From Gemmatimonadota bacterium (GTDB lineage: Bacteria > Gemmatimonadota > Gemmatimonadetes > Longimicrobiales > Gaopeijiaceae), in NCBI GenBank assembly GCA_028874995.1, contig JAPPGM010000093.1, positions 1 through 59,248 of the forward strand: a stretch of DNA of 59,248 nucleotides, written 5' to 3'. The notes under the pieces are model-generated. The model made no database searches. It saw nothing but the letters and a program-made list of their open reading frames with translations, and had not been told where the DNA came from. Below, piece by piece: positions 32,909-56,726 of the stretch; within the stretch, counting starts at the first letter, position 1, and every line of letters begins with the position of its first letter. Made by a program: the position numbers and the translations under genes.

Positions 32909-34034
32909 CCGAATCGATCCGGTACTGGTCCAGCGGCTCCACTAACGCCCTCAGGTCCCGGTCGCTCCGCAGTTCTTCAATCTTCATCCACGCCGCATCC
33001 GCAAAGGGCGGCCAGTGGTCCGGACGGAGCTTTACGGCGTCATGCGGAGACGCAACCCCCAGCGGCCGGAAGTCCTGATCCAAGCACACCACCGGATCGC
33101 GCGTGGCGACCAGTTCGACGGCTTCCCCAGCTTTCTCCCGAAGCTGGATTTCAAACCCACCCGACCTCTCGGAAGACTCGCCCCCGAGCGTCCACGCGTA
33201 GTCTTCCATCGCGGTTCGCCACCAGCGGTCGCCTAGGAAACCAGCCAGAACCCCAGCGTACTTGAGCTGCTCCATATCCCGTGCCAGCTCACAGTCGGAA
33301 TCCATCAAGCGCTCAAGATCGTCCACGCGGAGACGGAGGCGCGCGGCCACCCAGTTCACATCCCAAAGGAAGCACGGGTAGGGTAGGATTTGGTGGAGCA
33401 GCCAGCGCAGAAACAGCGCTCCGTGGGGATGACCGGCCAGCTCGTAGAGGGGCGGCTGGCATTCCCGCACCTCGCGCCAGGCTCGTTCAGCCCACCCGTC
33501 CTCATCGTCGAGCTTCAGCAACTCTCGCGCACGGGCTTCGGAGGCCGAAGGATTGACCGGCCAATCACGCGCAAGACCTTGGGCGGCGCAAGCCAGTTGA
33601 ACCACGCCTTGGAAACGGTCTGGATCGCTTTTCTCGAACACCCATTCAAGATTGTTCAGACGCGCCACAACGTGTCTGGAATAGGGTGGCCGGATCCTCC
33701 CGCTGACATCTCCCAGATGTCCGGTGTGGAGGGCCACCGCAGTAAGGTGGCCATTCGCCCTCTCGTCCGCTGCCTCCCTCAGCACGGTGGCAAGAGCCAA
33801 ACCGGTTCGGATGTTGAAGGCCGCGGGCTGAACCTCGCGTTCAGGCCAGTCTTCGAGACGGTAGTCCATGAGGACCAGGTGTGCCTTGCCAAGATCTTCA
33901 GGTTCAACGCTCTGCGGATGTCGCACCATCAGTTCCGCTTCGTCGGCCAGCCGGAGTTCGAGGCCACTTCGCAGCTCGTCCGCCTCGTCGTCAACCACGA
34001 GAATGACCGGCTTGGCGGCACGTTGGGCGTTCAT
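32901..34034 (-). CDS. Receiver-domain protein with unknown C-terminal domain
   Basis: 377 residues. The N-terminus is a response-regulator receiver: VILVVDDEADEL (acidic pair Asp15/Asp16), phospho-acceptor Asp57 in LVLMDYRLEDW, and TAVALHTGHLG for the switch Thr. The remaining about 250 residues match no DNA-binding output domain known to me; they include PHGALFLRWLLHQILPYPCF, WDVNWVAARLRLRVDDLERL and LGDRWWRTAMEDYAWTLGGE. The start overlaps the GHKL gene stop by 4 nt (ATGA). It is presumably phosphorylated by, or binds, the histidine-kinase-like C-terminus of that partner. Confidence 0.8.
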   Translation of the reverse strand: MNAQRAAKPVILVVDDEADELRSGLELRLADEAELMVRHPQSVEPEDLGKAHLVLMDYRLEDWPEREVQPAAFNIRTGLALATVLREAADERANGHLTAVALHTGHLGDVSGRIRPPYSRHVVARLNNLEWVFEKSDPDRFQGVVQLACAAQGLARDWPVNPSASEARARELLKLDDEDGWAERAWREVRECQPPLYELAGHPHGALFLRWLLHQILPYPCFLWDVNWVAARLRLRVDDLERLMDSDCELARDMEQLKYAGVLAGFLGDRWWRTAMEDYAWTLGGESSERSGGFEIQLREKAGEAVELVATRDPVVCLDQDFRPLGVASPHDAVKLRPDHWPPFADAAWMKIEELRSDRDLRALVEPLDQYRIDSGE

Positions 34035-36364
34035 TTCGGAAAGACCATTTCGATGGCGGTTGCGTATGGCGAATCGGGTTCGACGAACTCAATCTCGATC
34101 CCGTAGTAGTCGAGCAGCCTTCTTGTGATCGTGAGACCGAGACCCATTCCCTGGCCGAGGACGGGATTGACCTCCTCGGTTGTGGACTCGAAAGGCTCGA
34201 ACCAGCGCTCCGCCTCGCCGAGGTCGACAGCTACTCCTGTGTTCTGGACCCTTACCCGCAGCACACTGTCGTCGCCAGCCGTCGAGGCCCCGATCCGTCC
34301 CCCCTCCCCCGCACCCTTCACAGCATTCGTAAGCAGGTTGGCGAAGACGGTGGTCAGTTCCGCCGGGAACATCGGGATCGTCCTAACTCCCTTCGGAATC
34401 CTGTTCTCGATCCTGATCTTCCGCCGCTCGGCGGAGTGCCTGACAAGACGGACGGCCGCGTCGAAGCGGGCGGCAACATCTTGGCGAGAACGGCGTCTAC
34501 GAGCGTCCGGTGTGACGACATCCACGAGGTAAGAGGCGTGGCGCTCGATCCACTGCGCCAAGTCGACGGCCGCAGCCCACGCAAGTTTCACCCGCCGTCG
34601 CTGAGACGGAGAGAGTGACTGGTCGCGGAGAATCGCCCTGAGACCCTCACGCAAGGTCTGTGCAGCCCCAAGCAACGCGTTCATCTCGTGGGCGAAGGCG
34701 GCCATTTGTGTACCGACAGAGGCCAGTACTCGGAAGAGGGCTCCTTCGGAAATCACGCTGTCCGCCCGCTCCTTAGCCTCCTCCATGGCATGCACAGCCT
34801 CACGCATCCTTGGTTGGGCAGCGTCTGCGTCGCCCTGGCTGACGAGCAGTCGAGCTTCGCTGATCGAAGCACCGGCCGCCGCGATGAGGTCCGGCAAGGA
34901 GCTGCGCTCGTCGCCCTTCGAACTGGTGGCGGGTCGCCGGTCATCTCCATTGGCGGACTCCACTTCCCAAGTCTTCCGCCGCTCCTCCCGCCTCCGCATC
35001 CGCGCCTTTAGGTTGCTGGCCGCGCGTACTCGGGTGCACAGGTCCACGCCCGTGCGAACCAGTTTAACGAGCGTGTCGAACGCCGCCTCGGGTACGAAGC
35101 CTTCGCGGTTGACAAGCACCCGTAGCGTGGGCGCGCGCTCCTGCGTGAGAAACACACCGCCGAAGTAGTTGATGTGGGGAAAACGGGTCAGTCCCTCGTC
35201 CGGGTCCGCATCCTCGAACTCCGCGGCGAGAGGCCAATTCCTCAGCATTTCGAGCTGGCGAGGGCGTCTGGCGTAGTCGGCATCAATGGAAAGCCAGTCG
35301 TCGTCTCCGTACGGCAGCACCCGGAACCCCTCCAGATATACGCGGATTCCACTCGCCTTGGCGGCCCATGTCCGCCGGCGACGAGCCCCCTTGCCCTTGA
35401 TCGGACCCTCACGCATTAGGATTCGGGCGTCGAATGACGGACCGCGTTCGGGGTCGGGGTGCTCGATAGTGGTCGCGTAGTCTCTCGCGTCGGGGTTCCC
35501 AGCGCGGGTGCTGCGTGTCGGCGCGATCGCAAATCGGACCCGCCCGGCGTCCGCCTCAGCACGGATCTCAATCACCCAAGCGGCCATCTGTGCAATCACG
35601 TCCCAGTACTCGTCGCCGGACGCGAACTCACCTTCAAGGACTACTTCGAATCCACCACCCACCTGCCCCGCCCGGTTTCCGCGTATGTCCCGCAGAACGG
35701 GGCGCTCGAACAGAACAGGCTGGCGAACTACGGTCTCCGGCAGTGGCTGCTGGATGAAGTCTGGAGTCTGGAACGCCTGAACCTCAGCGAAGAACCTGGC
35801 CCGTTCCTTGGGCGTCCACGGCCGCCTGAGATTCAACAAGGTCAGGACAGTTCCGGAGCTGGTGCCCTCGTCAATGTTATTCTCAATCAGCGACACCACA
35901 TGGTCGGGTATGTCGTCGAGGGTCTCGTATGCCTCGATCGCGTCCCAATCGAGAACGGCGACGAGTTCCTTCGCCTTCGTGCCGCCATCAGCGGACTCGG
36001 CGCGGTGCACACTCGAAACCTCCAGTCGTCGCGCCAGCTTGTGGGCCGCCAGCCTCCCGATCCCCTTGACGCCGGTATATCGGCGCTCGAACACGGTCGA
36101 GCGCCTCGTCCCTTGGTCTTTCAGCCGCGACGCGATGCGCAGGAAACCCGACAGGAACCGATCCCGCCTCATTCCGGTTCCATTATCCAGAATTACAATG
36201 TGTCCCCGGTCCTGATCGTCGAGGTTCTCACCGTGGACGATCACTTCTGTGGCGTCGGCGTCGTAGGAGTTCTTGATCAGTTCGATCAGCGCCGTGGAAT
36301 CGCGGCCCACCAAGAGCTCACCAAGCTCCCGAAACAGATGGGTGTCGACCGTGAATCTAGCCAT
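34031..36364 (-). CDS. Double GHKL ATPase: MORC/HSP90-like N-terminus and histidine-kinase-like C-terminus
   Basis: 777 residues. The first GHKL domain (about residues 1-120) has the N-box ALIELIKNSYDADATEVIVH, G1 ILDNGTGMRRDRF and G2 YTGVKGIGRLAAHKLARRLE. This is the HSP90/MutL/MORC type. A long middle region resembles the linker of paraMORC proteins (INYFGGVFLTQERAPTLRVL). Near the C-terminus a histidine-kinase-like module follows: H-box AAFAHEMNALLGAAQTLREG, N-box FANLLTNAVKGAGEGG, G1 VRVQNTGVAVDL and G2 GQGMGLGLTITRRLLDYYG. No membrane segments, so it is cytoplasmic. The start overlaps the methyltransferase stop by 8 nt and the stop overlaps the receiver gene. Confidence 0.85.
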   Translation of the reverse strand: MARFTVDTHLFRELGELLVGRDSTALIELIKNSYDADATEVIVHGENLDDQDRGHIVILDNGTGMRRDRFLSGFLRIASRLKDQGTRRSTVFERRYTGVKGIGRLAAHKLARRLEVSSVHRAESADGGTKAKELVAVLDWDAIEAYETLDDIPDHVVSLIENNIDEGTSSGTVLTLLNLRRPWTPKERARFFAEVQAFQTPDFIQQPLPETVVRQPVLFERPVLRDIRGNRAGQVGGGFEVVLEGEFASGDEYWDVIAQMAAWVIEIRAEADAGRVRFAIAPTRSTRAGNPDARDYATTIEHPDPERGPSFDARILMREGPIKGKGARRRRTWAAKASGIRVYLEGFRVLPYGDDDWLSIDADYARRPRQLEMLRNWPLAAEFEDADPDEGLTRFPHINYFGGVFLTQERAPTLRVLVNREGFVPEAAFDTLVKLVRTGVDLCTRVRAASNLKARMRRREERRKTWEVESANGDDRRPATSSKGDERSSLPDLIAAAGASISEARLLVSQGDADAAQPRMREAVHAMEEAKERADSVISEGALFRVLASVGTQMAAFAHEMNALLGAAQTLREGLRAILRDQSLSPSQRRRVKLAWAAAVDLAQWIERHASYLVDVVTPDARRRRSRQDVAARFDAAVRLVRHSAERRKIRIENRIPKGVRTIPMFPAELTTVFANLLTNAVKGAGEGGRIGASTAGDDSVLRVRVQNTGVAVDLGEAERWFEPFESTTEEVNPVLGQGMGLGLTITRRLLDYYGIEIEFVEPDSPYATAIEMVFPK

Positions 36365-38018
36365 TACTGTCCGCAGCCCTGGAAGGCCTGCGCCACTGCG
36401 TCAAATCGTTTCGCAGTTGGTTCAAGATCTCGATCTCCGGGTCCTTAAGGCGCAGCCCCTCGCCCAAAACCCGTTCGTCCGCAATCTCTCTGGCCTCCTC
36501 TTCGCTGCCCTCGCGAAGCAAGCGGTTAAGCTTCTGGAAGACATCTTTCGCACCGGGAATCAACGGCACGGGGATCCTCTTCAGCGTACCGGGTTCCATC
36601 TTCAGGATCCCTCCGCCGTAGCGACGGCCCCGCAGCTCGGCCCATGCCGAGACCGCGCTGGTGAGGAATCCCACGGCCACGGCTTCCGGGGTGACGGCAA
36701 GCTCAGACTCCCAGCAAACGCTGTGGAGGGCATTGCTGTTCAAGCACTCCCCCCTGTTTAGGACGAGCAGGGGCGATCCGGCTCGCGCGCAGGTTGCGAA
36801 CGCGTCGGAACGCGACGGTAGGTCAACTCGGAACCAGTGGCTCCGGAGGGCGCATTTGTATCGGTCGTCGATGCCGCCTTCGACACCTTCTTGAATCCAA
36901 GAATCGACGAGGCGGTCGTGTTCCGCGCTTTCGGGCCGGACCAGAAGCGCCGCTGCCCCAGCTGCCACGAGCGCTCCATGGTCGTCGTTCGTGAACTCTA
37001 GGCCCTCCAACCATCGAGTACGCGACACGATGCCATGCCGAACATCGGCAGGGATATTGATAGCGTCGAGGGCGGCTCGAGAGCGGATGAAATGCCGATT
37101 TGCGCCGGTGACCACTCCGACCCTTACTGACGCCACTTGGTCCAAACGCCTAACTTGGGGAGATTCTCGGATTCGGGACAGCAGGTCAATGGCTGCGTCG
37201 AGGGTGTCTCCATCGGTAGGCGGGAAGGAAGAGCAGTCAGGAGGGCAACCATTGGAGTTCAGGAGAACCGACTCGAGTCCCTCAACCGAATCGACGGCCA
37301 GCGTTTCGACGGTACCACTGTCACCAAATCCCGAGCACGCCAGCGCGACCACGGCCTCGTCCGTGCCCTCAAACTGCCGATCACGAATGTGGATCAATCG
37401 GCTGGTCCCGAACCGCTCGGCCAGCATCTCGCGCAGAGGCGCAGCATAGTCGGTCTGCAAGATCGCCTCTGGTACCAGCATGGCCAGTCGACCTCCGGTT
37501 GCCAAAAACCTCAGGGAATGAAGAAGAAAATACGCCCAGAGGCTGGCAGTGGCCGGGAGCGGCACCGACGATTCGGCTGCGACAGCCCGGGCCGACTCCT
37601 GTTGATCGCCCGTGATCCAGTGGTGTCGTACGTACGGAGGATTGCCCACGATAGCAGCGTATGGACTGCCTGGGAGATCACCGAATGATGTCGCCAAGAA
37701 GTCGGCCTCGATGCAGTTCGCCTCGATCAACAGTTCGCTGTCGCGCGCCGTCTCGATACAGCTGGGGTCGATGTCGACCCCGTAGACACCAGTTCCCGCG
37801 TTCGACGGATCGCTTCTTGAGAGTACACGAGCGGCAGCCTCCAGAAACGCGCAGCCGCCGTAGCTCGGATCCAAGACGGGCCCGTCTCCGTCCGCCAGCG
37901 CCCACCTCACCAGCACCGTTGCCAATTCGTCCGGCGTGTAGTAGGACCCGAGCAGGCGGCGCCTTGGTACGGACCCTAGATCGGGCTCTTGAGGCAACTG
38001 GTCGGTGGGGAGCATCAT
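36357..38018 (-). CDS. N6-adenine DNA methyltransferase
   Basis: 553 residues. SAM-binding motif I region (PVLDPSYGGCAFLEAAARVL) follows GSYYTPDELATVLVRWAL, the start common to N6-MTase/Eco57I-like enzymes. The catalytic NPPY is in AAIVGNPPYVRHHWITG. Mid-protein blocks TGGRLAMLVPEAILQTDYAA and DRQFEGTDEAVVALA are standard. The C-terminal half (RVGVVTGANRHFIRS, LKRIPVPLIP) is a TaqI-like target-recognition region. It would methylate adenine in a specific site and mark self DNA. Gene order places it directly upstream of the GHKL gene with overlapping ends. Confidence 0.88.
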   Translation of the reverse strand: MMLPTDQLPQEPDLGSVPRRRLLGSYYTPDELATVLVRWALADGDGPVLDPSYGGCAFLEAAARVLSRSDPSNAGTGVYGVDIDPSCIETARDSELLIEANCIEADFLATSFGDLPGSPYAAIVGNPPYVRHHWITGDQQESARAVAAESSVPLPATASLWAYFLLHSLRFLATGGRLAMLVPEAILQTDYAAPLREMLAERFGTSRLIHIRDRQFEGTDEAVVALACSGFGDSGTVETLAVDSVEGLESVLLNSNGCPPDCSSFPPTDGDTLDAAIDLLSRIRESPQVRRLDQVASVRVGVVTGANRHFIRSRAALDAINIPADVRHGIVSRTRWLEGLEFTNDDHGALVAAGAAALLVRPESAEHDRLVDSWIQEGVEGGIDDRYKCALRSHWFRVDLPSRSDAFATCARAGSPLLVLNRGECLNSNALHSVCWESELAVTPEAVAVGFLTSAVSAWAELRGRRYGGGILKMEPGTLKRIPVPLIPGAKDVFQKLNRLLREGSEEEAREIADERVLGEGLRLKDPEIEILNQLRNDLTQWRRPSRAADSNG

Positions 38019-47389: not shown

Positions 47390-48529
47390 ATGATCGAATG
47401 GCTCGGTATCGGACACCTCTTCCAGCTGACCCGGACGGAGGCGATAGCGGGCTTCTTCACCCCGATGGTGATCTTCGCCGCGTTCTTCGTGGCCCAAGTG
47501 GTGCTGCCGGGAAGGCGGGTCCCCGGCTACGTCACCGATCCGGACAGCGGCGAACCGCGCAACTATCGGCTGAACGGCATCCTGGTTTTCGCGCTCGCGG
47601 TGATCGTGTGGGCGCTCGAGCTCACGGGGATGCCGCATGACTGGTTCTACCGGTCCTCGATCCATGCCGTCGCCGGGGGGACGGTTCTGTGCGGCATCTT
47701 CGCCATGCTGGCGGTTTTCGGAGGGTCGGACGGCAAGGTCGAGCGTCCGCTGGCCGCGCTGTGGGAAGGGCGCGTCCTGGAGCTGCAGTTCCTCAATGAG
47801 CGCTTCGACGTCAAGATGTACCTGTACGTCGTCGGCGGCACGATGCTGTCGCTGAACGCCATGTCCGGGGCCGCCTGGCACTACGAGCTGTTCGGCGCGG
47901 ACGCCAACCCTGGCGTCTTCCTCTACGCCGCGTTCCTCACCTTCTATGTCGCGGACTACTTCGTCTTCGAGCGCGTCCAGCTGTACACCTACGACGTGAT
48001 CCATGAGCGGCTGGGCTTCAAGATGATCTGGGGCGGCCTCATGGTCTACGGGTGGCTCTACATCCTGCCGCTGTGGGGCATGGCCGTGTATCCGAACCCC
48101 GGGTTCGCGCCGGGATGGTCACATGTGTGGCTCATCGGATCAACCGCGCTGTTCCTCGTCGGATGGGGCATCGCGCGAGGCGCCAACATGCAGAAGTACA
48201 CCTTCAAGCGGTGGCCCGAGCGCAAGTTTCTCGGGCTCATCGAGCCCGGGTACATCGAGGCCGGCGACCGGAAGATCCTGTGCAGCGGCCTGTGGGGCGT
48301 CGCGCGCCATTTCAACTACCTGGGCGAGGGATTCCATGCCCTGGCGATCGCCCTGGTGTTCGGTCACTTCGCCGTTCCCTGGGCGTGGACCTACTTCCTC
48401 TTCATCGTCGGGCTGTTCATCTTCCGCCAGCGCCTGGACGACAGGTTCTGCGCAGAGAAGTACGGGGCCGAGAAGTGGGCGGAGTACCGGGAACGGGTGA
48501 GGTGGCGGATTATTCCGGGGATCTATTGA
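47390..48529 (+). CDS. ERG4/ERG24-family sterol reductase-like membrane protein
   Basis: 379 residues, about ten membrane helices. The C-terminus is diagnostic: SGLWGVARHFNYLGEGFHAL, then FRQRLDDRFCAEKYGAEKWA and RVRWRIIPGIY. It corresponds to the (G/W)WGxARHxNYxGD and YRxxPxIY blocks of delta14- and delta24(28)-sterol reductases and lamin B receptor. NADPH-dependent reduction of a sterol or steroid-like double bond is the family reaction. An isoprenylcysteine-methyltransferase-like protein is the broader alternative, but the block match favours the sterol group. No other sterol gene is in the window, so the substrate may be a host or dietary sterol. Confidence 0.82.
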   Translation: MIEWLGIGHLFQLTRTEAIAGFFTPMVIFAAFFVAQVVLPGRRVPGYVTDPDSGEPRNYRLNGILVFALAVIVWALELTGMPHDWFYRSSIHAVAGGTVLCGIFAMLAVFGGSDGKVERPLAALWEGRVLELQFLNERFDVKMYLYVVGGTMLSLNAMSGAAWHYELFGADANPGVFLYAAFLTFYVADYFVFERVQLYTYDVIHERLGFKMIWGGLMVYGWLYILPLWGMAVYPNPGFAPGWSHVWLIGSTALFLVGWGIARGANMQKYTFKRWPERKFLGLIEPGYIEAGDRKILCSGLWGVARHFNYLGEGFHALAIALVFGHFAVPWAWTYFLFIVGLFIFRQRLDDRFCAEKYGAEKWAEYRERVRWRIIPGIY

Positions 48530-48551: not shown

Positions 48552-51790
<3,239 letters not shown>

Positions 51791-55523: not shown

Positions 55524-56726
55524 TCAGCCGATTCGCGGGAGACCGCCGAGTACGCCGGCGCGATACTTCGGATAAAGACGGACATCACGTCGCAAGCCCC
55601 GCACATCCTGAGCACTGTAGACCCGAGTTGCTCCGCTATCATTCTTCTCGACGATGAACAGCTCCTCCTTCTCCAGGTCATCCAGCAGGCCCACATGATG
55701 TGAGGACACCAGCAGTTGGGCGTTTCGACGATTGCTTTCGTGCGATCGGAACTGATTTAGGATTTCGCCCAGCATGTCGACATGCAGGGCGCCATCGATC
55801 TCATCGAGAATCGCCATTCCGGTCACATCCAGCGCGCCCTTGAGAAGCGGCAGTAGATGAACCAGACGTCGCGTGCCCGTGGACTCGAAATAGAGCAGAA
55901 CCGGAGAGTCGAGCCCCTTGTGGGTGAAACAGAGATGTTTGACGCCCGACACCTCCTTGATCGCGAGGTCCCCGATGCCCAAGTCGTTCTGCTGGAGTTG
56001 TGCCTGAGCCCATCGTCTGAAGTCCGGATCGCTCTCCAGCCATCCGACGACGGCAGAGGTATCTGGAGCCCATGTGTCGTTGCCGACGATATTGGTTGCG
56101 TTCACGAGCCGGTTCTGCAGGAAGGCCGCGAAACGGCGCGCGACGGGCACGTTGAGGAACCCCAGAGTAGCGATCGCGGATCGGTGGGGATCGACCGCCT
56201 TCAGTCGGTCGTCCCGTGAAGTGAGACCGAGTTCGCGCGACACGTAGATGGGTGTTTCGGGGGGTCCTCGCTCGAAGAGTCTGCGACGGCGTCCCTTGGG
56301 GAAGTGGACCAGTGCTTCATGAGCCACGAAGTCTTCATCCTTCCCGTTGCTCGTTGGTTGACGTCCGACCGAGACCTCGTACCGGAACCTCCGAGGAGTC
56401 TCGTCCGGCACCAGGAAGTTCCCTTCACCCTCGAGCGAGAGGCGAGTCGGCTCCAAATGGCTTTGAATCGACGCGAAGGGCAGTAGTTGGATGGGGTCCG
56501 CTGGAGACGACACGATCTGACCCAGCTCGACCATCGCCCGAAGCAGCGTCGTCTTGCCTGAACCGTTGGGACCCATCAGTACAGCCACCGTGGGGAGTCG
56601 CACATCGGTCTGGTCCGCACTCCGCCTGAAGCGAGCCAAGTCCGGCGCCGTGCCCGGGATCCGGAGATCGAGGGTCACTTCTTCGCGTATCGATCCGTAG
56701 TTGGATACTGAAAACGTATGAATCAT
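55524..56726 (-). CDS. AAA ATPase (AAA_15/AAA_21), RloA/AriA-like
   Basis: 400 residues. ABC-type ATPase core as in OLD, RloA and AriA: N-terminal IHTFSVSNYGSIREEVTLDL, Walker A AVLMGPNGSGKTTLLRAM, signature region YFESTGTRRLVHLLPLLKGA, Walker B MAILDEIDGALHVDML, and the switch His in LLVSSHHVGLLDDLEKEE. The middle insertion is about 150 residues. First gene of a two-gene operon with the TOPRIM-like protein. The upstream 70 bp are AT-rich, unlike the surroundings, which suggests horizontal arrival together with its promoter. Confidence 0.85.
   Translation of the reverse strand: MIHTFSVSNYGSIREEVTLDLRIPGTAPDLARFRRSADQTDVRLPTVAVLMGPNGSGKTTLLRAMVELGQIVSSPADPIQLLPFASIQSHLEPTRLSLEGEGNFLVPDETPRRFRYEVSVGRQPTSNGKDEDFVAHEALVHFPKGRRRRLFERGPPETPIYVSRELGLTSRDDRLKAVDPHRSAIATLGFLNVPVARRFAAFLQNRLVNATNIVGNDTWAPDTSAVVGWLESDPDFRRWAQAQLQQNDLGIGDLAIKEVSGVKHLCFTHKGLDSPVLLYFESTGTRRLVHLLPLLKGALDVTGMAILDEIDGALHVDMLGEILNQFRSHESNRRNAQLLVSSHHVGLLDDLEKEELFIVEKNDSGATRVYSAQDVRGLRRDVRLYPKYRAGVLGGLPRIG

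Follow-up and report, generated by a model that had tools for sequence, protein, structure and literature searches.

The closest structurally solved relative of the gene described here is MaSR1, the C-14 sterol reductase of Methylotuvimicrobium alcaliphilum (PDB entry 4quv). According to the accessible parts of two reports, its Asn359 and Arg395 are residues of the NADPH pocket (PMC4951196), and Tyr241, Asp257 and Asp363 have catalytic or pocket roles (PMC12489058). The gene, which we refer to as S-type, shares with MaSR1 the fold (Z 32.3) and the counterparts of Asn359, Arg395, Tyr241 and Asp257. However, it differs in having a short N-terminus (by about 75 profile positions), Glu at the site of Asp363 and Lys at that of Arg323, and in belonging to another clade. 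A second related system is found in sponge symbionts, which carry a cluster of ERG24, CYP51 and LSS and are enriched in ERG24, as stated in the available text of PMC9531527. This cluster ERG24 resembles S-type in its sponge-symbiont hosts, its short N-terminus, the Glu at the Asp363 site and its horizontal spread across phyla, whereas it sits with CYP51 and an epoxidase–cyclase fusion, an arrangement seen at none of the 80 S-type loci (best 80 of 242).

Sterol reductases are also found as orphans. Coxiella burnetii possesses CBU1158 and CBU1206/Stmp1 with no sterol pathway, and both are thought to use host sterols (PMC8787468, available part). Compared by description only, these enzymes differ from S-type in that the same part of the report calls them eukaryote-like and gives Stmp1 ten predicted membrane spans. 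A further orphan is described for sponge chlamydiae in the accessible portion of PMC9666466. Finally, sterol methyltransferases (SMTs) of sponge symbionts work in vitro and leave double bonds in the side chain, according to the available part of PMC10070321. They parallel S-type as a case of sterol tailoring by sponge bacteria, including a member of the Chlamydiae thought not to make sterols; in contrast, that report concerns a methyltransferase, and its available part identifies no reductase partner.

Whether the host or its bacteria produce the unusual sterols found in sponges bears on the use of 24-isopropylcholestane as the oldest animal trace. S-type is a defined and widespread candidate for the step after methylation, also in genomes where no cyclase was detected. 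Orphan bacterial sterol reductases, one of which is reportedly present in Legionella drancourtii too, and the enrichment of ERG24 in sponge symbionts are already known. What is new, as far as our searches show, is that S-type forms a separate clade, that its copies are nearly identical in at least ten phyla, that it is independent of the sterol cluster, and that it is linked to SMT in genomes where no cyclase was detected. No description of the S-type subfamily or of a sterol-linked GPP34–P450 fusion was found in the literature searched, with most subscription journals and preprints outside it.

The protein, its fold and its pocket

The window, that is the whole 59,248-nucleotide stretch analysed, is one entire contig of a Gemmatimonadota metagenome-assembled genome (MAG) related to MAGs with sponge-derived names. 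The S-type gene gives the single PF01222 match in this genome (4.52 Mb, 191 contigs, 96.7% completeness). The preliminary description had assigned it to the sterol reductases, and the open reading frame as well as the family hold. PF01222 (ERG4_ERG24) aligns residues 28–379 with profile positions 76–432 at 123.7 bits (E 1.1e-35, cut-off 27). The match to sterol reductases is therefore as described, but it runs near full length up to the last residue, with roughly the first 75 profile positions absent, and is not confined to C-terminal blocks. DUF1295 scores just 27.5 bits on the same protein, and no ICMT family appears in the Pfam scan of its 379 residues. By phmmer the protein matches 4quv with E 2.9e-38, and the PDB search yielded two clear PF01222 relatives. 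Since its identity to MaSR1 is only about 29%, the substrate cannot be read from the sequence. The gene is under purifying selection, with dN/dS of 0.10 against a 95% identical relative (L036) and of 0.10–0.19 across five pairs.

The AlphaFold model, built with 46 aligned relatives, has a pLDDT of 83 and a pTM of 0.85. It superimposes on 4quv with a VIA-align Z of 32.3 (rmsd 3.1, 348 residues aligned), a sterol-reductase fold, while Z is 11.6 against ICMT and 11.2 and 10.4 against steroid 5-alpha-reductases. Membership in ICMT or DUF1295 is excluded by Pfam, by this difference in fold and by the tree, so that the ICMT-like placement, which the preliminary description had named as evidence against its own reading, did not occur. 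Conservation was counted in the 46 rows of a structure alignment (A3). Of the 13 pocket residues examined, 12 do not vary across 46/46 rows and Tyr186 is kept in 45/46 (Table 1). The residues corresponding to Tyr241, Asp257, Asn359 and Arg395 of MaSR1 are retained, and the two changes, Lys273 for Arg323 and Glu313 for Asp363, are conservative; the latter Glu is common to S-type and the sterol-cluster ERG24s. Both lysines of the QKYTFKR motif are present in 46/46 rows. Their MaSR1 counterparts Lys319 and Arg323 are residues that we take to contact NADPH.

Table 1. The S-type gene and its pocket segments in the window.
Feature	Position	Strand	Basis
S-type sterol reductase-like protein, 379 aa, PF01222	47390..48529	+	ORF from ATG, Pfam, phmmer
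Tyr186 (MaSR1 Tyr241), proposed catalytic proton donor	47945..47947	+	Y in 45/46 rows; PMC12489058 (available part)
Asp202 (MaSR1 Asp257), pocket residue	47993..47995	+	D in 46/46 rows; PMC12489058 (available part)
QKYTFKR (residues 268-274), cofactor-side motif	48191..48211	+	Lys269 = MaSR1 K319, Lys273 = R323
SGLWGVARHFNYLGE (residues 299-313)	48284..48328	+	Asn309 = MaSR1 N359, Glu313 = D363
RQRLDDRFCAEKYG (residues 346-359)	48425..48466	+	Arg346 = MaSR1 R395, NADPH pocket; R in 46/46 rows

A bacterial clade shared between phyla

When 84,980 species genomes were searched with an alignment of 12 rows, 242 relatives emerged, the best 80 of which were kept. These 80 copies are 70–95% identical over practically their full length and come from MAGs of at least ten phyla. 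By phylum labels assigned from record titles, the best 80 of 242 comprise Gemmatimonadota (18), Chloroflexota (15), Acidobacteriota (9), Alphaproteobacteria (9), Dadabacteria (8), Nitrospirota (5), Binatota (4), Nitrospinota (3), Latescibacterota (2), 'Deltaproteobacteria' (2), Gammaproteobacteria (2), Actinomycetota (1) and two of unassigned phylum. Several of the names suggest a sponge source (Candidatus Palauibacter rhopaloidicola, Spongia_Bin9 and the RHO, COS and IRC bins), and the bin letters fit sponges in the available part of PMC8163846, where we infer the link from letters to species. The bacteria that carry S-type are unrelated to one another and seem to be inhabitants of marine sponges; the lineage of the window is probably host-associated, as suspected in the preliminary description. 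A full S-type is present in 21 of 395 Gemmatimonadota genomes (4 of 138 genera) and in 11 of 57 Dadabacteria, all of these with genomes of 1.6–1.9 Mb and none with the roughly 1-Mb genomes.

Between phyla, the identity of S-type is above that of RecA for 207 of the 208 pairs from the 22 genomes with both proteins, with means of 77.4% and 61.4%; the single opposite pair is included in the 208. Phyla were again labelled from record titles, and some Binatota/Deltaproteobacteria pairs may belong to one phylum. The test used 22 of 30 RecA loci, and 33 of 34 searched genomes gave a RecA match. S-type has therefore spread horizontally. Within phyla the two proteins are often close (e.g. Nitrospira pairs, 87–90 versus 90–92), and S-type is therefore not simply slow-evolving. 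MAG binning errors could mimic part of the cross-phylum copies, but for three copies (L054, L092, L093) the record title names a chromosome. Such extreme sharing marks S-type as a gene under selection in the sponge habitat.

In a tree with the window gene and 29 of the 80 fetched loci (best 80 of 242), S-type forms its own clade with support of 100/100, apart from MaSR1 and from the sterol-cluster ERG24. All its members are bacterial, the tree including one presumed eukaryotic row (9l5r), and they radiate as a shallow star in which sister rows can come from different phyla, e.g. Gemmatimonadota and Latescibacterota rows at 98/99. Instead of being specifically eukaryote-like, as described earlier, the gene belongs to a bacterial clade common to sponge-type MAGs of many phyla, and it is probably no stray gene from a eukaryote. 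A viral origin was rejected, the one partial viral_contigs match being 46% identical and closer to the L004 type. The L004 type (L004:1459-2613, L249 and L116) is a group sister to S-type, with about 47% identity to it for L004 and L116; all three rows have Phe at the catalytic Tyr241 site, and one member lies on an IMG/VR contig. A third PF01222 subfamily (L002, L003, L156:3564-4892; 443 aa, about 430 bits) occurs in two genomes of the same genus as the window and next to a sterol cluster in an alphaproteobacterium, with a broken copy in G004.

Could S-type be the ordinary C-14 reductase (ERG24) of a de novo sterol pathway, with the remaining genes missing from the assembly? Its closest solved relative is a delta14-reductase, and cluster ERG24 genes are known from sponge symbionts (PMC9531527, available part). 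However, the sterol cluster located in S-type genomes (Rieske gene, ERG24, CYP51, epoxidase–cyclase fusion, some with squalene synthase) has its own ERG24, which is about 30–34% identical to S-type and stands in another clade with full support. The ten cluster ERG24s that were read all come from genomes in which S-type is present too. In addition, cyclase, epoxidase, squalene synthase and cluster Rieske gave matches at 1e-8 in 0/80 S-type loci (best 80 of 242; stretches of 3.9–17 kb each), and a P450 with 24–26% identity to CYP51 was found in 5/80. The separate clade and the 0/80 count exclude membership in the known sterol cluster. In one locus squalene epoxidase and oxidosqualene cyclase share a single 1117-aa ORF (L153:6878-10231, minus strand; PF08491, PF13249, PF13243). 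The same order is seen by tblastn in several sponge-type sterol clusters, and the 3765 positions of the LSS alignment in the available part of PMC9531527 are a length compatible with such a fusion.

The genome of the window bears on the same question. A PF13243 cyclase was not found by a profile search whose controls were positive in Bacillus subtilis and Methanosarcina acetivorans; an epoxidase–cyclase fusion (SQMO-OSC) was not found by a search without positive control; and the P450s gave no CYP51 match at 1e-8. The cyclase, epoxidase and CYP51 that the preliminary description proposed to look for are thus not detected, among them the oxidosqualene cyclase and CYP51 that would accompany an ERG24, in a genome 96.7% complete, and an action on hopanoid-like lipids, also suggested there, finds no support in this genome. 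The lack of a cyclase may be an assembly gap (191 contigs), because the nearest relative (G018/G148), in which no SMT match was found, and a further sibling (G153) have oxidosqualene-cyclase fragments at contig ends. The firmest case of S-type and SMT without a cyclase is G185 (OX638332), a chromosome-level Dadabacteria record with S-type and SMTs and no PF13243 match. Across 50 S-type genomes, PF13243 is absent from 18 and gives a strong squalene–hopene-type match (about 400 bits or more) in 18; matches of 90–195 bits in 16 genomes, a set overlapping the squalene–hopene-type one, are read as putative oxidosqualene cyclases, 13 of the 16 having been checked by alignment to one. Taken together, a de novo ERG24 seems to us distinctly unlikely.

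Link to a sterol methyltransferase

Clustering of the S-type neighbours gave SMT, recognized by its Sterol_MT_C domain, as the lead. In Dadabacteria an SMT gene lies 88–99 bp from S-type in six of eight loci and 4.2 kb away in two (loci from the best 80 of 242), and the domain is shown for the SMTs of L088 and L289. Other genes near S-type in its relatives encode a GPP34–P450 fusion, an FAD oxidoreductase, a Rieske protein with a KshA_C domain, and LolA-like and MMPL proteins with sterol-sensing-domain (SSD) matches. In a genome of the same genus as the window (G012), Rieske, FAD enzyme, SMT, GPP34–P450 and S-type stand together on one 18-kb contig. In the window itself, the 30 ORFs scanned with Pfam (170 mechanical ORFs in all) include no further sterol gene, and queries from the sterol cluster and the sterol island matched only the S-type gene by tblastn. 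The reported lack of sterol genes nearby is thus right for the window and does not extend to the genome. Its contig C143 carries the Rieske–KshA_C gene, the FAD enzyme beside it and the last 140 residues of an SMT cut by the contig end (domain score 61.8 bits), and contig C61 carries a cut GPP34–P450 fusion (L032:229-2079) that is 96% identical to the G012 copy. In the sterol makers G162 and G171, homologues of the FAD enzyme (83–84% identity) and of GPP34–P450 stand next to the cyclase, and this ties the set to sterols. The GPP34 (Golgi phosphoprotein 3)–P450 fusion has SMT as its neighbour in non-makers and the cyclase in sterol makers; examples are L290:4746-6776 (minus strand) and L288:8727-10751 (plus strand).

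The association extends beyond neighbouring genes. Among 395 Gemmatimonadota genomes, SMT is present in 19/21 with S-type versus 18/374 others (Fisher 3e-20), and with genera as units all four S-type genera fall within the six SMT genera of 138 (P about 1e-6). For the genus of the window alone the difference is not significant (9/11 with S-type versus 6/12 without, P 0.19), which means that part of the link seen across the phylum may reflect lineages associated with sponges. SMT is found in 35 of 43 S-type genomes reached through loci. A clear SMT lies within the fetched stretch in just 9 of the 80 S-type loci (best 80 of 242), and most of these 80 loci have neighbours without a sterol link.

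Weakly matching methyltransferases near S-type in L091, L101 and L112 were not taken as SMTs: that of L112 has no Sterol_MT_C domain, and those of L091 and L101 were set aside with weak identity as the sole criterion. The catalase-peroxidase KatG, encoded beside S-type in the window (48910-51153, minus strand), looked like a partner at first and is given here as an observation only, since the fetched stretches show it at 13/80 loci from three phyla and not at the rest (best 80 of 242). These phyla are Gemmatimonadota, Latescibacterota and Acidobacteriota; the KatG gene is adjacent to S-type or no more than about 7.5 kb away, its orientation differs between loci, and it is present twice in three acidobacteriotal loci. 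In four Nitrospirota loci (L051, L065, L071, L103) an ORF of about 980–1020 aa after S-type looks by eye like a TonB-dependent receptor.

Proposed function and neighbouring genes

We propose that S-type is probably an NADPH-dependent C=C reductase which tailors acquired sterols as part of a kit passed among the phyla of sponge symbionts. That the substrate would be a sterol, and that the cell would take it up, we infer. Because no sterol-synthesis genes were found in its own genome, the substrate would be acquired: with cyclase and CYP51 not found, a home-made delta14 substrate is unlikely. An action on host sterols, as suggested in the preliminary description, falls within this best-supported reading. 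The integral-membrane enzyme would reduce a carbon–carbon double bond with NADPH. By analogy to ERG24, and judging from family and conservation, Tyr186 may protonate the sterol double bond while NADPH, held by Asn309 and Arg346, would donate the hydride. The sterol could come from the sponge, from the food of the sponge or from sterol-making neighbours. The kit would comprise the sterol C-24 methyltransferase, the KshA-type Rieske oxygenase, the FAD oxidoreductase and GPP34–P450, and in some relatives the SSD-bearing MMPL and LolA-like genes may form its transport side.

Which bond would be reduced? The yeast C-24(28) reductase Erg4 belongs to PF01222. Because of this and of the SMT products, the side-chain bond left after C-24 methylation is our first guess, held tentatively, and a nuclear bond such as delta7 comes second. 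For the latter, S-type would act like DHCR7 on the ring system of acquired sterols, perhaps following the KshA-type Rieske enzyme or working in the opposite direction to it. PF01222 includes delta7 reductases, and the Rieske–KshA_C domain family includes cholesterol 7-desaturases; one such Rieske enzyme is encoded in the genome of the window. In addition, a steroid 5-alpha-reductase directly follows S-type in a Latescibacterota locus (L080:9237-9995, plus strand; PF02544 180 bits, PDB 7c83 E 5e-75). However, the link of S-type to the methyltransferase is stronger than that to the Rieske gene, and we regard a nuclear bond as unlikely.

A non-sterol isoprenoid lipid, with the sterol-gene neighbours being coincidental, would agree with the wide variation of neighbours across phyla, with the 18 of 50 S-type genomes that have no PF13243 cyclase, and with the occurrence of prenyl-cysteine methyltransferases in the wider fold group. 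We consider it improbable, since Dadabacteria have SMT and Latescibacterota a 5-alpha-reductase as sterol-specific neighbours of S-type, and SMT also co-occurs with S-type. For the tailoring of acquired sterols, a doubtful extension is that S-type is a missing partner of the symbiont SMTs and would reduce the side-chain double bond that alkylation at C-24 leaves behind. Non-makers of many phyla would then together complete the peculiar alkylated sterols known from sponges, perhaps also those of the 24-isopropyl type used as a fossil biomarker, starting from host or shared sterols. If true, bacteria that do not make sterols would remodel them inside the sponge.

Two further loci of the window were noted. 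A protein with two HATPase domains adjoins an Eco57I-type methyltransferase (34031-38018, minus strand), probably a type II restriction–modification pair. An AAA ATPase (55524-56726, minus strand) matches the PADLOC AbiLi model with 187 bits and is a possible phage-defence gene.
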